NCBI RefSeq assembly: GCF_002952215.1
Contig: NZ_CP022600.1
Coordinates: 3,038,001-3,102,000, forward strand
Direction: 5' to 3'
Length of the DNA stretch: 64,000 nucleotides
Source: Porphyrobacter sp. HT-58-2
GTDB lineage: Bacteria > Pseudomonadota > Alphaproteobacteria > Sphingomonadales > Sphingomonadaceae
Part shown: positions 21,843 through 33,011 of the stretch, piece by piece
How positions within the stretch are numbered: the first letter of the stretch is position 1
Layout: each line of letters starts with the position of its first letter
Program-made: the position numbers and the translations under genes
The notes under the pieces: generated by a model
Database searches by the model: none
Seen by the model: the letters and a program-made list of their open reading frames with translations, nothing else
What the model was told of the DNA's origin: nothing

Positions 21843-22853
21843 TTATGCCTTGCGGCGCGGCATCCGGTAGGGGAGCATGAACTGCACGAGCCGCGACGAA
21901 AAGCGCCGCATGTCGAGGCTTTCCTGCACCGCCACCACGTCCTCGCCCATGAAGCGCGAGGCGAGTTCACTGCGAGCGTAGAACGGCGTGTCCTCCCACG
22001 TCCGGCGCACTTCGGCGACGCCGATGTCGGAACGGGTGCGGCGGGTGATGCCCCACTTGCTGTCGGGAAGCGCGGCAATCGGAGGCAGATCGACCGGCTC
22101 CGGCACGCCATGTGCATCAAATCGCAGGGCGCTGGCGAACAGCGAACCATCGCCGCGCTCGCCTTCATAGCATACCAGCGCGCCTTCCTTCAGGTGCGCG
22201 CGCGACCAGTGCCAGGTGTTGAAGCCCGTCTCCAGCGGCTCGGCCCCGCGGTTGTGATCGAGATAGGCCTTGCCGCTCCACGACAGGCCGGGGGACTGCA
22301 TCTCCACCTCGATCCGCGCGCGCGGAGCAAGACAATGCCAGATGTGGCGTTCCTGCGGATCGAGCGCGAAGGCGGCGCGGTTGAGCACTTCGGGGATCAC
22401 CCGCACCCGCCCGCGCACCGGGCGCTGCCAGGGGACGAACAGGCGCGTGTCGCCTTCATGGATGTCGATGGTGAGCGCCCCGCCCTCCCAGCGCACGCTG
22501 CTTGGCCCGATCACGAGATTGCTGGCATCGCGATCCAGCGCGCTGCGGCCCCGCTCGGTCATCGTCCAGCGCGCCTGCGGGCCGTAAAGCGCGACATTGA
22601 GCGCCACGTGATCGAGCGGATCGCTCCGCCCAGACCGCTTGTAATAGGGCGAGAACACGCTCCCGAGGAACGCGATGATCGTCAGCCCGTGCTGCCCGTC
22701 GTCGCTGATGGCATCGACATACCACCAGGAATAGCCGCCGGGCGGGATGTCTTCATCGAAACGAGGTCCTTCGCGATCACCCGCGCTGCCAGCTGCCCGG
22801 ACAAGGCTGCCATCGGGACGCCTGCCGCCGGATGGGTCGCCCCGCCCGTGCAA
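21843..22853 (-). CDS. crtC: Hydroxyneurosporene synthase (carotenoid 1,2-hydratase)
   Basis: CrtC is recognised by PRFDEDIPPGGYSWWYVDAIS, IIAFLGSVFSPYYKRSG, HVALNVALYG and WSRAHLKEGALVCYEG. It hydrates the 1,2 double bond of acyclic carotenoids. The N-terminus is a problem. In this frame there is no ATG or GTG near the start of homology (about 22775); the nearest start codon is a TTG at 22853-22851. This gives 336 residues and overlaps crtD by 172 bases. The ATG further upstream (23051) would only add crtD antiphase sequence. Either an unusual start or a sequence error affects this junction. Confidence 0.85.
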   Translation of the reverse strand: MHGRGDPSGGRRPDGSLVRAAGSAGDREGPRFDEDIPPGGYSWWYVDAISDDGQHGLTIIAFLGSVFSPYYKRSGRSDPLDHVALNVALYGPQARWTMTERGRSALDRDASNLVIGPSSVRWEGGALTIDIHEGDTRLFVPWQRPVRGRVRVIPEVLNRAAFALDPQERHIWHCLAPRARIEVEMQSPGLSWSGKAYLDHNRGAEPLETGFNTWHWSRAHLKEGALVCYEGERGDGSLFASALRFDAHGVPEPVDLPPIAALPDSKWGITRRTRSDIGVAEVRRTWEDTPFYARSELASRFMGEDVVAVQESLDMRRFSSRLVQFMLPYRMPRRKA

Positions 22854-24244
22854 TAGAGACCGGGCAGACGGGTTTTCGGCCCCTGCCGCTGGAAGGAGGC
22901 CGCCCAACCGTGCGACGCTCTGCCATAAAGGGCGCCGCCCGTGGCCGGGAACAGGCCTTCCCAATCCTCGGGCGTCATGAGCTGGTGCGGCAGTGGCTCC
23001 TCCAGTTGCAGGCCGCAGCGTTTCAGCGTTGCCATCATGGCCCGTGTGCATCGCTCTCTCTCCTCGGGTGTATAGTGGTGAACGTCTCCATGAGCGGGGG
23101 CGTTGACGATGATCTGGATGCGTTCGCGCCCCGCCGGTGGGGGCGCATGCTCGCCCGCGCCGCGATCAATGGCGCAGACATAGACGGTCGGCTCGGACGG
23201 GGTGTTCCCGGCGCCGATCTCGCGGAATTCCTTAGGGTAATCGCGCGAGAAGAAGACGTTGTGGTGGGTAAGATCAAAGCCCTTGGTCTCGGCATGGGCA
23301 TACCACACCAGCGCCGATAGCGAGCGTTTGCGCACCGGAATGGCAGGCACAGCGCGGGTAGCTGCCGCCCCGAAACGACCAGTGGCAAGCGCGCCGGGAT
23401 CGCCATTGCAGATCACGACATCGGCCGGGATCACCTCTCCGCTGGCAAGCCGCACGCCGCTGGCGCGGCCATTATGGGTGAGGATTTCCGCAACCGGCGC
23501 ATGGCAGCGCACCCGTGCGCCCTGCCCCTCAGCCAGCCCGGCAATTGCCCTCGCCAGCGCATGGATCCCGCCCTCGATCAGCCACACCCCGCGCGCCTCG
23601 ACGTGGGCGATCAGCATCAGGGTCGCGGGCGCACTGAACGGCGAAGACCCGCAATAGGTGGCATAGCGCCCGAACAACTGCTGGAGGCGCGCATCCTTAA
23701 AATGGCTGCCGAGCGCCTTCCACATCCCGTCAAACGGACGCATCGCCAGCATATCGCCCATGCGCCACGGCCCGATCCGCCACATCATCGGCAAAGGCGT
23801 GCTGGCCTTGTCGCCGCGCAGGAAGGGTTCTTCCAGCACTTCGAAGATCCGCCGCGCCTCGGCGGTGAAGCTGGCGTAACCCCGCGCTGCCTCGGCCCCG
23901 GCAAATTCGCCCACGGCTTCGATGCTGCGCGCACGGTCGGCATAGAGATCAAGCTGGCCTGCATCATCCCACGCATGACGGGCGATCACATCGGCCTTGT
24001 TGACGGTGACATGATCCTCCAACCGCGCGCCGCAAGCGGCAAAGACCTCGTCGAAGACCTCGCGATAGGTGAAGACTGTCGGCCCGCCGTCGATTGCCGC
24101 GCCATCGACGCTGATACGCCGCGCCTTCCCGCCGACCCAGGCCTCCTTCTCGCATACGGTCACATCCGCGCCGCGCGCGGCGAGCAAGGCGGCGCTGGTC
24201 AGCCCGCCCATTCCCGCTCCGATCACGACGACTCGCGCAGTCAC
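22682..24244 (-). CDS. crtD: Carotenoid 3,4-desaturase
   Basis: This 520-residue flavoprotein has the N-terminal dinucleotide motif VVIGAGMGGLTSAALLAARG and the C-terminal signature GLYCTGGATHPAAGVPMAALSGQLAAR of the CrtI/CrtD desaturases. The position between crtC and crtF identifies it as CrtD, which desaturates 1-hydroxy carotenoids. It starts at GTG 24244. About 25 residues after the usual family end are encoded by DNA that also encodes the CrtC N-terminus in another frame, so the natural end may be shorter. A PpsR box lies upstream, shared with divergent crtF. Confidence 0.88.
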   Translation of the reverse strand: MTARVVVIGAGMGGLTSAALLAARGADVTVCEKEAWVGGKARRISVDGAAIDGGPTVFTYREVFDEVFAACGARLEDHVTVNKADVIARHAWDDAGQLDLYADRARSIEAVGEFAGAEAARGYASFTAEARRIFEVLEEPFLRGDKASTPLPMMWRIGPWRMGDMLAMRPFDGMWKALGSHFKDARLQQLFGRYATYCGSSPFSAPATLMLIAHVEARGVWLIEGGIHALARAIAGLAEGQGARVRCHAPVAEILTHNGRASGVRLASGEVIPADVVICNGDPGALATGRFGAAATRAVPAIPVRKRSLSALVWYAHAETKGFDLTHHNVFFSRDYPKEFREIGAGNTPSEPTVYVCAIDRGAGEHAPPPAGRERIQIIVNAPAHGDVHHYTPEERERCTRAMMATLKRCGLQLEEPLPHQLMTPEDWEGLFPATGGALYGRASHGWAASFQRQGPKTRLPGLYCTGGATHPAAGVPMAALSGQLAARVIAKDLVSMKTSRPAAIPGGMSMPSATTGSTG

Positions 24245-24338: not shown

Positions 24339-25462
24339 ATGAGCAAATGGGCCGCTTTCAAGCTCGGATATGTGGCGCGCCGCAACCGGGTGTTCGCCTC
24401 GCCAAGGTTCCAGCACTGGGCCGCGCGCCTGCCGCTGATCCGGTGGATCGCTCGCAGCCGTGCCAACGGCGCTTTCGATCTCCTCGCAGGGTTTGCCTAT
24501 TCGCAGGTGTTGCGCGCCTATGTTGAAGGCGGACTGTTCGATGTGCTCAAGGACGGTCCGCTGGGGCAGGCGCAGATTGCCGCGCGCATGAACCTGTCCG
24601 AAGCCGCAACGCTGACCCTGCTGCGCGCCGGACGCCCGCTGATGCTGTCGGAAGAACCGGCCCCCGATCACTGGATGCTGGGCGAGCAAGGCGCTGTATT
24701 CGCTTCCAATCCCGGTGTGCAGGCGATGGTGCGCCACCACCGGCTGCTCTATGCCGATCTCGCTGATCCGCTTGCCCTGCTGCGTGCCGACCGGGCTGAG
24801 CCGACGGCGCTTTCACAATTCTGGACCTATGCCGGGGCGCTCCATGGTGTCGCCGAGCGTGGAGAGCAGACCGCCGAATATTCGCAGCTGATGGCTGCCT
24901 CGCAACACTTCGTCGCGGACGAGGTGCTGGCGACAGTCGCCTTCCGGGACGTGACCCGCCTGCTGGATGTCGGGGGCGGGCATGGTGCCTTCCTTGCGGC
25001 AATCGGCAGTGCGCATCCGCATCTGCGGCTCGGCTTGTTCGATCTGCCGGAAGTCGCCGAGACCGGCGGGCGCGTACTGGCCGAGGCCTTCGGTGCTGAG
25101 CGCGTGACCGCGCATCCCGGCAATTTCTTCAGCGATTCCATTCCACAAGGCTATGACATGGTGTCGCTCATCCGCATCCTCCACGATCATGACGATACCC
25201 CGCGCAAGCCCTCCTCGCCAATATCCGCGCCAGCCTCGCCCCTGGAGCGCGGCTGCTGATCGCCGAACCGATGGCGCAAATTCCCGGCGCCGAGGCGATG
25301 GGCGAGGCGTTTTTCGGGCTGTACCTGTGGGCGATGGGCTCAGGCCGCCCGCGCAGCCCGGTCGAGATCGCCGCCATGTGCCGCACTGCCGGCTTTTCCC
25401 GCGCACAGCCCGTCGCAACAGCGCAACCAGTCAACGCAAGCGTCATCATCGCCACCGCCTGA
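24339..25462 (+). pseudogene. crtF: crtF (hydroxyneurosporene O-methyltransferase) interrupted by a frameshift
   Basis: The first frame (ATG 24339, stop 25259) encodes an O-methyltransferase with the SAM-binding motif LLDVGGGHGAFL and LFDLPEVAETGGR, up to ILHDHDDTP. The family sequence then continues in another frame from about 25208 (ALLANIRASLAPG, LLIAEPMAQIPG, FGLYLWAMGSGRPRS) to a stop at 25462. A single missing base near 25200-25207 (for example one G in CCCCGCGCAAG) explains it; restoring it gives a full-length protein of about 374 residues. The enzyme would methylate the 1-hydroxyl of acyclic carotenoids. This is either a real loss of function or a sequencing error. Confidence 0.85.
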
Positions 25463-25586: not shown

Positions 25587-26534
25587 ATGAACACCCTGGC
25601 GGTCATTCTTGAAGCACCTGAGCGCATCGCGCTCCGGCCGCTTGAGATGAAGCCGCTGGATGCTGCCGACGTTCTCGTGGATATCGCGTACAGCGGCATC
25701 AGCACCGGCACTGAAAAGCTGCTTTTTACCGGGCGAATGCCGCCCTTTCCGGGCCTCGGTTATCCGCTGGTGCCGGGCTACGAATCGGTGGGCCGCATCG
25801 TCGATGCCGGGCCTGATGCGCGCGGACGGATCGGTGACTGGGTGTTTGTACCCGGTGCCAATTGCTATCAGGATGCGCGCGGCCTGTTCGGCGGCACGGC
25901 ACAGCGCGTGATCGTGCCTTCGGCGCGGGCACTGCCAATCCCTGAACATCTTGGCGATGCCGGCGTGCTGTGCGCGCTTGCTGCGACCGCGCTTCATGCG
26001 ATCAAGGGCGGCTTCGACCGCCGCGAGGCCCTGCCCGATCTCATCATCGGCCACGGCGTTCTGGGTCGCCTGCTCGCTCGCCTTACGCTGGCGCTGGGCG
26101 GCGCTGCGCCCACGGTGTGGGAAGTGAACCCCGCGCGCCGCGCAGGTGCATCCGGTTACAATGTTATCGACCCTGCCGCTGATGAGCGCCGCGATTATCA
26201 CGCCATCTATGATGCCAGCGGCGATGCCGGGCTGATCGATGATCTCGTGATGCGCCTCGCCAAGGGTGGGGAGATCGTGCTGGCGGGCTTCTATTCCGAA
26301 CGGGTGAGCTTCGCCTTTCCGGCGGCCTTCATGAAGGAGGCGCACTTCCGCGTTGCCGCCGAGTGGCAGCCCGGCGATCTCGCCGAAACCCGCGCGCTGA
26401 TCGAATGCGGGAGGCTCGATCTTAAGGGCCTCGTTACCAACCGGCGTCCTGCCGGGGAGGCGCTCGACGCCTATCCGCAGGCTTTCACTGACCCCGACTG
26501 TCTCAAGATGGTCCTCGATTGGAGCGAATGCTGA
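25587..26534 (+). CDS. bchC: Bacteriochlorophyllide a dehydrogenase (3-hydroxyethyl)
   Basis: This 315-residue protein belongs to the zinc-type/medium-chain dehydrogenase fold ([33 protein letters not shown], later a Rossmann part [15 protein letters not shown]). BchC oxidises the C3 hydroxyethyl group to acetyl late in bacteriochlorophyllide a synthesis. The ATG has GGAGA 10 bases upstream. Its stop overlaps the bchX start (TGATG). It heads the bchCXYZ-puf superoperon. Confidence 0.96.
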
Positions 26535-27523
26535 TGTCCGTGCTCGACACCCAGACTGCAAGCCTGCGCGAAGAAGCGAGCATTGAACCGGATCCGGTTC
26601 ACACCGGTGAGGTGAAGAGCGAAACGCAGATCATCGCGATCTACGGCAAGGGCGGCAGCGGCAAGAGCTTCGCGCTCGCCAATCTCAGCTACATGATGGC
26701 CCAGCAGGGCAAGCGCGTGCTGCTGATCGGCTGCGACCCCAAGTCCGACACCACCAGCCTGCTGTTCGGCGGCAAGGCGACCCCGTCGATCATCGAAACC
26801 TCGTCGAAGAAGAAGCTGGCCGGCGAGGAAGTGCGCATCGAGGATGTGTGCTTCCAGCGTGACGGTGTCTTCGCGATGGAACTAGGCGGCCCCGAAGTCG
26901 GGCGTGGCTGCGGCGGGCGCGGGATCATCCACGGCTTCGAAACGCTCGAAAAATTGGGCTTCCACGACTGGGGCTTCGACTACGTGCTGCTCGATTTCCT
27001 TGGCGACGTGGTGTGCGGCGGCTTCGGCCTGCCGATCGCCCGCGACATGTGCCAGAAGGTGATCGTGGTCGGCTCGAACGACCTGCAGTCACTCTATGTC
27101 GCCAACAACGTGTGCCACGCGGTCGAATACTTCCGCAAGATGGGCGGGAATGTCGGTGTGGCGGGCATGATCGTCAACAAGGACGACGGCACCGGCGAAG
27201 CCCATGCCTTTGCCAAGGCGGTCGGCATTCCGGTGCTCACCGCGATCCCCGCCAACGAGGACATCCGCCGCAAGAGCGCCAATTACCAGATCATCGGCAT
27301 GCCCGGCGGCGAATGGGGCAGCCTGTTTGAAGAACTTGCCAGCAACGTCGCCAGCGCGCCGCCGCTGCGGCCCACGCCGCTTGATCAGGACGGACTGCTG
27401 GGCCTGTTCAGTGCCGATGTGGTCGGCGGCAATGTCGAGCTCGTCCCCGCGACCCAGGCCGACATGCGCGGCGGGGTGTTCGAAACCAAGCCCAGCCTCG
27501 AAGTGATCTACGACGAGGCCTGA
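26534..27523 (+). CDS. bchX: Chlorophyllide a reductase, iron protein subunit X
   Basis: This 329-residue NifH-like ATPase has the P-loop YGKGGSGKS at residues 37-45. The two Cys ligands of the shared 4Fe-4S cluster lie in VGRGCGGRG and GDVVCGGFG. BchX passes electrons to BchYZ to reduce the C7-C8 bond of chlorophyllide a to the bacteriochlorin level. The ATG at 26534 overlapping the bchC stop is preferred because GGAG lies about 10 bases upstream. The ATG at 26528 and the TTG at 26519 are in frame but sit too close to or before the ribosome site. Confidence 0.97.
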   Translation: MSVLDTQTASLREEASIEPDPVHTGEVKSETQIIAIYGKGGSGKSFALANLSYMMAQQGKRVLLIGCDPKSDTTSLLFGGKATPSIIETSSKKKLAGEEVRIEDVCFQRDGVFAMELGGPEVGRGCGGRGIIHGFETLEKLGFHDWGFDYVLLDFLGDVVCGGFGLPIARDMCQKVIVVGSNDLQSLYVANNVCHAVEYFRKMGGNVGVAGMIVNKDDGTGEAHAFAKAVGIPVLTAIPANEDIRRKSANYQIIGMPGGEWGSLFEELASNVASAPPLRPTPLDQDGLLGLFSADVVGGNVELVPATQADMRGGVFETKPSLEVIYDEA

Positions 27524-27525
27524 GC

Positions 27526-29067
27526 ATGAGCGACGCCTTCCCCCCCAACGCGACACGCGCCCCTGACCGGATCGAACTCGATACCGCCAGCGCCCCTGTG
27601 GTCGAAGGCGGCTGTGCGTCGAAGGACACCATGCGCGAGGCTGCGCGTGCTGCAGGCAAGAGCGATATCCTCGATCAATATGCCGCCGATTATCCGGTCG
27701 GCCCCCATGATCAACCCCAATCCATGTGCCCCGCGTTCGGGTCACTCCGGGTGGGCCTGAGAATGCGGCGCACCGCGACCGTGCTCTCGGGCTCGGCCTG
27801 CTGCGTCTATGGCCTGACCTTCACCTCGCACTTCTACGGCGCGCGGCGGACGGTGGGCTATGTGCCGTTTTCCTCCGAAACGCTGGTCACCGGCAAGCTG
27901 TTCGAGGACATCAAGGAAGCGGTCGAAGGGATGGCCGATCCCGATCTTTATGATGCGATCGTGGTCACCAACCTGTGCGTCCCCACTGCCAGCGGCGTGC
28001 CGCTGCGGCTGCTCAAGAAGCAGATCAATGGCGTGCGCATCATCGGCATCGACGTGCCGGGCTTCGGCATCCCCACCCATGCCGAGGCAAAGGACGTACT
28101 TGCCGGCGCCATGCTGCAATATGCGCGCGAGGAAGTGATGTCCGGCCCGGTTGCCGCCCCGCGCGAACGCGCCGACCGCCCGAGCGTCGCGCTGCTGGGC
28201 GAAATGTTCCCGGCTGATCCGGTGGTGATCGGGCAGATGCTCGAACCGCTCGGGCTGGCTGCTGGCCCCGTGGTGCCGACCCGCGAATGGCGCGAGCTCT
28301 ATGCCGCACTCGATTGTGCGGTCGTGGCCGCAATCCACCCCTTCTACACCGCCTCGATCCGCGAATTCGAAGCCGCGGGCCGCCCGGTGGTGGGCTCGGC
28401 TCCGGTAGGCGCGGATGGCACGGCGGCCTGGCTGCAATCACTCGGTGATACGCTGGGCCTGCCCCAGGCCAAGGTCGACGGCGTCAAGAACGCCATGATT
28501 GGCGCTTGCAAAGGCGCGCTCGGTGCCATGCCGATCAAGGGGCGCATCACGGTTTCGGGCTATGAAGGCTCCGAACTGCTGGTCGCCCGCCTGCTGGTCG
28601 AAAGCGGCGCGGATGTGCGCTATGTCGGGTCGGCCTGCCCGCGCACGAAATGGTCGGATGCCGACCGCGAATGGCTCGAAGCGCGCGGCGTGCAGGTGCA
28701 ATACCGCGCCAGCCTCGAACAGGATATCGCCGCGGTCGAGGAATATCGCCCCGATCTCGCCATTGGCACCACGCCTGTCGTGCAGCACGCCAAGGCGAAG
28801 GCGATCCCGTCGCTCTACTTCACCAACCTGATCTCGGCCCGCCCGCTGATGGGCCCGGCAGGGGCCGGCAGCCTCGCCACAGTGATCAACGCGGCGATGG
28901 GCAACAAGGCGCGCTTCGATGCGATGCGCGACTTCTTCGAAGGCGTCGGGACCGAGCATGCCGCAGGCGTGTGGGAAGACCTGCCGGTCGATCGGCCCAA
29001 GTTCCGCAAGAAGTACGCCGCCCTCAACGAGGCCGCGCGCAAGGCATCGGAGGCGATCGGCACATGA
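27526..29067 (+). CDS. bchY: Chlorophyllide a reductase subunit Y
   Basis: This 513-residue NifD-like subunit has the Cys-containing motifs [19 protein letters not shown] and SGSACCVYG, and [12 protein letters not shown] further on, which are the candidates for cluster coordination. With BchZ it forms the catalytic component of chlorophyllide a reductase. It begins two bases after the bchX stop (TGAGCATG) and overlaps bchZ (ATGA). Confidence 0.97.
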
Positions 29068-32039: not shown

Positions 32040-33011
32040 ATGGCGACATATCAAAACATCTTCACGCAGGTTCAGGTGCAAGGGCCGCCCGAAATGGGCG
32101 TTCCCCACCTTGACGGCAGTGATGAACGGCTTCCCTTCACCACCCATAACCACTGGATGGGCAAGCTTGGGCAGGCCCAGATCGGGCCGGTCTACCTCGG
32201 CACCACCGGGGTGATCAGCCTGGCCTTCGGCACGCTGGCCATCATGATCATCGGGCTCAACTTCTGGGCTCAGGTCAACTGGAGCCCGCAGGGATTCATG
32301 CGTGAGTTCTTCTGGCTCACGCTCAACCCTCCGGGGCCGGAATACGGCTTCAGCCCCTTCGTCCCGCTGGACAAGGGTGGCTGGTGGATCCTCGCAGGCT
32401 TCAGCCTGACGGTCTCGATCCTGCTGTGGTGGGTGCGCACCTATACCCGCGCGAAGGCGCTGGGCATGGGGATGCACATTCCCTGGGCCTTTGCCTCGGC
32501 GATCTGGCTCTACCTGGTGCTGGGCTTCATCCGCCCGATGCTGCTGGGCCAGTGGTCGGAAGCGGTGCCGTTCGGCATCTTCAGCCACCTCGACTGGACC
32601 AACAACTTCTCGCTGGTCTACGGGAACCTGTTCTACAATCCGTTCCACGCGCTCTCGATCGTCTTCCTCTACGGGTCGGCGGTGCTGTTCGCGATGCACG
32701 GGGCGACCATTCTGGCGCTGGGCCGTTACGGCGGTGAGCGCGAGATCGAACAGATCACCGATCGCGGGACGGCTGCCGAACGCGGCGCGCTGTTCTGGCG
32801 CTGGGTGATGGGCTTCAATGCTACCTTTGAATCGATCCACCGCTGGGCCTGGTGGTTTGCGGTGCTGACGACGCTCACGGGCGGCATCGGCATCCTGCTT
32901 ACCGGCACCGTGGTCGATAACTGGTACCTGTGGGCGCAGGAGCACTACTATGCTCCGACCACCGAAAACTACGATCCGAGCGGCGCGATCGGCGCAGCTT
33001 CGGGCCAGTAG
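32040..33011 (+). CDS. pufM: Photosynthetic reaction centre M subunit
   Basis: This 323-residue protein has the M-type start ([17 protein letters not shown]) and five membrane helices. The special-pair His lies in [12 protein letters not shown], and the iron/quinone region includes [12 protein letters not shown] and [19 protein letters not shown]. The ATG follows the pufL stop by 14 bases with AAGGAG upstream. No pufC (tetrahaem cytochrome) follows; two terminators end the superoperon. Electron donation to the special pair therefore likely comes from a soluble or membrane-anchored cytochrome encoded elsewhere. Confidence 0.98.

Follow-up and report, generated by a model that had tools for sequence, protein, structure and literature searches.

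The window analysed here is a stretch of 64,000 nucleotides (positions 3038001-3102000) from Porphyrobacter sp. HT-58-2, the genome of which was searched as one contig of 3.28 Mb (3,279,145 bp). Within it, crtF has the minus-strand genes crtD and crtC on one side and the plus-strand genes bchC-bchX-bchY on the other. The ORF starting at 24339 is taken to be crtF from its position and presumed family, no model for such a CrtF having matched; its first piece (287 aa) hits only general and BchU-type curated models, with scores below their cut-offs (43 bits for NF053543, 35 bits for TIGR02716). Of the minus-strand neighbours, crtD (22682..24244) is assigned as 1-hydroxycarotenoid 3,4-desaturase by NF045637 (657 bits, cut-off 580, model positions 1-485 of 485), and residues 125-401 of the carotenoid 1,2-hydratase ORF, crtC (21843..23051), align with positions 1-275 of NF045922, a score of 280 bits that is below the cut-off of 400 while covering 275 of the 278 model positions. 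Downstream on the plus strand, crtF is adjoined by bchC (25587..26534; TIGR01202, model 2-308 of 308), followed by bchX (26519..27523; TIGR02016, model 1-290 of 296) and bchY (27526..29067; TIGR02015, model 1-422 of 422). The plus-strand ORF at 32040..33011 (323 aa), presumably pufM for the reaction-centre M subunit, served as a marker of phototrophy in comparisons of co-occurrence with crtF, and a crtY-type cyclase is also present in the genome.

The first crtF ORF matches PF00891 (E 1.2e-27) and PF08100 (E 5.8e-8), the Methyltransf_2 and dimerisation domains that are also found in CrtF of purple and aerobic phototrophic bacteria, and its neighbourhood resembles the conserved crtF-bchCXYZ block described for such clusters (PMC3176799). 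When the 306-aa ORF was searched against solved structures, 56 matches came up, mostly named methyltransferases, the best being CalO6 (4z2y, E 3.9e-21); structure 1x19 ("CrtF-related protein") was matched at E 5e-4 and added nothing on the break described below. In the whole genome there is no second CrtF-like gene above the PF00891 cut-off, the sole other match being weak and below it. The locus is predicted to be an unremarkable member of a photosynthesis gene cluster, encoding a Methyltransf_2-type carotenoid 1-hydroxy O-methyltransferase.

Unlike CrtF of purple and aerobic phototrophic bacteria, crtF of HT-58-2 is one base out of frame as assembled. The zero-frame ORF runs on the plus strand from the ATG at 24339 to a stop ending at 25259 (24339..25259, 306 aa) and follows its homologues as far as HDHDDTP before deviating, so that it consists of about 287 homologous residues, some 19 foreign residues and the stop. 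The C-terminal part lies in the -1 frame of the same strand at 25208..25462, with 84 codons aligned and a stop at 25460-25462; this frame is open to the homologous stop codon, with no further stop or shift. Alignment with relatives indicates that one base is missing between the two pieces, at about 25197-25208 on the plus strand, a G/C-rich zone containing four consecutive C. The methyltransferase domain is divided accordingly: positions 28-143 of PF00891 correspond to residues 170-287 of the 306-aa ORF and positions 148-210 to the piece 25208-25459 in the -1 frame, and scanning the genome with the same model gave the locus as positions 28-143 and 146-210, in two frames. Instead of a single frame of about 374 codons, the assembly thus contains a 306-aa frame and a detached piece, and the shortened product is separated from its C-terminal 87 residues and loses PF00891 positions 146-210. 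The C-terminal match is not by chance, since the 84 shifted codons align to 37 of 38 related loci with identities of 79-90% for 35 of them and 71% for the other two. A single-base frameshift after HDHDDTP had been proposed in the first-pass annotation, and it is borne out by the ORF, by the split of PF00891 over two frames and by the alignment of relatives; the coordinates, the frames, the stop at 25462 and the restored length of about 374 residues given there were also right. Of the 37 site-spanning loci, 25 have a frame of 374 codons.

The 38 related crtF loci, mostly from Erythrobacter and Porphyrobacter, share 59-88% identity with the gene, and the best of the 38 by identity is that of E. 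donghaensis DSM 16220 (88%). All are open across the break site except for one that is cut by a contig end (37/38). In the 12 spanning loci without a 374-codon frame the frames have 263-378 codons, the low values reflecting contig ends or later match starts. In 23 related loci the site reads HDHDD-[A/G/E]-P-x-x-x-x-L-L or nearly so, followed by 88 codons to the stop. We also surveyed 100 same-genus genomes, HT-58-2 included, drawn from a larger genus. The first part of crtF is present in 74 and the C-terminal piece in 73, one genome, the sequence of which runs out at the end of a contig, dropping out of the latter count. In each of the 72 others with the C-terminal piece, this piece forms part of a single long frame, of 250-601 aa (shortest in draft contigs) as against 89 aa here, and by eye these frame lengths equal those recorded for the first part of crtF in the other genomes. 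By eye, the list of genomes with pufM is identical to the list with crtF, 74 of 100 in both cases. Two relatives have irregularities of their own: in G034 (C3:217281-218130) crtF has a frame change near its N-terminus, with two matches covering residues 34-286 and 3-46, and in the draft genome G007 (C63:49540-50473) pufM gives two separate matches (residues 1-166 and 172-323), perhaps through a further assembly break. The accessible text of PMC12654162 makes no mention of a frameshift.

For 23 of the 38 named loci, taken from the 25 with a 374-codon frame after leaving out L059 and L060 for no substantive reason, we compared substitution rates on either side of the break. Behind it (84 codons), the median dN/dS is 0.176 between the window and its relatives and 0.140 among the relatives, and ahead of it the corresponding values are 0.144 and 0.161. 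By mean amino-acid divergence the window ranks 20th of 24 behind the break, on the high side of the range and still within it, and 8th of 24 ahead of it. The higher rank and dN/dS behind the break could hint at slightly relaxed constraint. As judged from these codons, the C-terminus appears to be without clear decay, which would mean that the break arose very recently or is not real; in a pseudogene of so recent an origin no decay signal would be expected.

Two further genes of the same assembly are broken in a similar manner, both outside the window. The valS gene, 77 kb from crtF, is spread over two frames, with model positions 2-590 at 3138593-3140512 (813 bits) and 606-861 at 3140557-3141315 (158 bits), and the break falls at about genome position 3140527. 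In three of three congeners valS is in one frame. The genome contains no other valS above the TIGR00422 cut-off; the remaining matches, with scores of at most 168 bits and open frames of 562-1001 aa, are presumably the Ile, Leu, Met and Cys enzymes. Valyl-tRNA synthetase is in general essential, and a cell would not survive without it. Because the gene is single-copy and presumably essential in this strain too, its break is almost surely an assembly error. The second gene, ntrX (minus strand, about 2359129), matches NF051870 in two contiguous pieces in different frames (positions 2-175 and 176-388) that meet at a G-rich run. Among the 31 genomes searched for ntrX, 30 matched, HT-58-2 included; the frame holding the second piece has 321 aa in HT-58-2 against 463-520 aa in all 29 of the other genomes with a match. 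Runs of four or five G or C lie a few bases at most from each of the breaks in crtF, valS and ntrX, which is weak evidence given how common such runs are in the genome. Another possible break, left uncounted, is at about 3157554, likewise outside the window, in an RNA pseudouridine synthase gene that we presume to be rluD-like. Two congeners have a different frame at its N-terminus, and a protein may still be made here from an in-frame ATG upstream.

How frequent such breaks are was assessed by three scans. In a leave-one-out test, 400 kb of the HT-58-2 genome was compared with 400 kb from each of three congeners. Among the conserved cores, 2/154 are firmly frame-broken here (crtF and valS; the 154 include at least two antisense shadows), as against 0/153, 0/150 and 0/156 in the controls (0/459), zeros reached by reading the rows classed as "SPLIT"; a further 6 rows here and 2, 2 and 5 in the controls were classed as "partial". 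The five "SPLIT" rows of HT-58-2 are crtF, valS, one antisense shadow of each and one upstream extension, and the one such row in each control was judged an upstream extension after reading its frames. By a reckoning made by hand, a difference of 2/154 versus 0/459 has a probability of about 0.06 under chance alone, a modest excess based on few events. A reference-based scan covered 278,906 bp of the genome with the frames of the three congeners and listed 23 rows. Besides crtF and valS, it flagged 3115954 (with three references) and 3150751 (with two), which on reading were dismissed as boundaries between genes or as stop-to-stop frames extended upstream; a further eight sites were each indicated by a single reference, and the DNA was read at two of them (2778262 and 3080234). 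Finally, a codon-statistics scan of 1.6 Mb gave 419 direct frame changes, reduced to 44 by a filter, 13 of which were read by eye: one was a clear break (ntrX) and 12 resembled ordinary neighbouring genes. This last scan is insensitive, having missed crtF and the rluD-like gene altogether and having placed valS within the 419 and outside the 44.

Whether the crtF break is a real loss or an assembly error had been left undecided in the first-pass annotation; the breaks in valS and ntrX favour the error, and a real loss now looks unlikely. We consider the one-base break in crtF to be most likely an indel error left in the assembly beside a short G/C run, with an intact gene in the living strain (probability roughly 0.86). 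Long-read assemblies are known to retain indels that turn genes into false pseudogenes, as the accessible parts of two reports describe (PMC12007338, PMC8011154), and the situation here is alike in that indels near short G/C runs break conserved genes, the essential valS among them. If the valS break is taken as not real, the assembly most likely holds indel errors, with crtF among those affected. If essential genes make up about a seventh of all genes, one error in such a gene points to several within the sample, a number close to that of the observed breaks, and little room is left for real breaks among the three firm ones. Counting against an error is the shortness of the run at the crtF site, four C, which is milder than a classic homopolymer error. 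The competing view, a genuine and very recent one-base deletion that inactivated crtF, for example in laboratory culture, and left 1-hydroxy carotenoids unmethylated, is improbable without being far-fetched. The break is, after all, present in the sequence as assembled, no second gene scores above the PF00891 cut-off, the end-step of a carotenoid pathway is dispensable in principle, and the near absence of decay suits a very young mutation as well as it suits an artefact. The N-terminal frame change in crtF of G034 may be a break in that relative's own gene and, if real, would mean that crtF can be broken in nature. Against a deletion stand the single-copy valS and ntrX, broken in the same assembly, so that false breaks are almost surely present in it; the 73 other genomes with a crtF match, all of which also have pufM; and the 72 other genomes with the site, none of which has the break.

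Two explanations in which the shifted frames would be biologically meaningful fare much worse than an assembly error. Full-length CrtF might be made from the two frames by programmed -1 frameshifting or by polymerase slippage, an idea that the open -1 frame, conserved up to the homologous stop, invites. Such a shift would be unneeded in the 72 of 72 other genomes in which crtF is continuous and the shift site is not conserved. Slippery heptamers have the form X XXY YYZ, and slippage likewise requires runs above a certain length; the zero-frame codons gat acc ccg cgc aag contain no such heptamer and the run of four C is short for polymerase slippage. With neither conservation nor a heptamer, a programmed shift is rejected as exceedingly improbable. 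The same very low probability applies to the 306-aa form being a natural, functional short CrtF. It would keep the dimerisation domain and PF00891 positions 28-143, but the stretch lost spans positions 146-210 and the protein ends there in 0 of 72 other genomes and in 0 of 37 named spanning loci. Homologues ending at the first stop had been named in the first-pass annotation as what would speak against a frameshift, and as no examined homologue stops there, the short form is likewise rejected.

In the portions of the literature available to us, CrtF is described as methylating 1-hydroxy carotenoids in the spheroidene and spirilloxanthin routes (PMC10604819). As in the Rhodobacter crtF mutants treated there, loss of crtF would block this methylation; unlike in Rhodobacter, where the gene was assigned with mutants, a loss in HT-58-2 would be deduced from the assembly alone (PMC10604819). 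The first-pass annotation expected a product of the spheroidene type to be affected. For the order of the strain, PMC3176799 reports that there is no crtA, and it names bacteriorubixanthinal, zeaxanthin and beta-carotene as the light-harvesting pigments of Erythrobacter. One sentence there reads as if crtCDF were absent from the order, which conflicts with the genes found here and with another passage of that paper, where crtF-bchCXYZ is said to be conserved in every cluster studied. Elsewhere, spirilloxanthin formation via CrtC, CrtD and CrtF is proposed and both spheroidene and spirilloxanthin are listed for the order's phototrophs (PMC5989583, as far as accessible), and the cluster of the related strain ULC335 is described as containing crtC, crtD and crtF together (PMC10674011, likewise). 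Based on these published pigments and routes, the crtY-type cyclase and the ULC335 genes, loss of CrtF would more likely hit bacteriorubixanthinal- or spirilloxanthin-type pigments than spheroidene; the spheroidene expectation is less likely than claimed, though the listing of spheroidene in PMC5989583 counts in its favour.

Since one of the frame breaks in the assembly is scarcely compatible with life, the pigment phenotype should not be predicted from the HT-58-2 assembly, and as biology the crtF finding is ordinary. If the break were real, about 287 native residues would be kept and the last 87 lost, a third of the methyltransferase domain, and from the loss of that third we infer that the shortened CrtF would lack activity. 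There is a small chance that the loss of CrtF is genuine and of very recent date in this strain, with crtC, crtD and the other photosynthesis genes observed in the cluster still in place. HT-58-2 would then be a natural aerobic phototroph with acyclic carotenoids ending in free 1-hydroxy groups, and such a CrtF-minus phototroph would be suited to probing the role of the 1-methoxy group.
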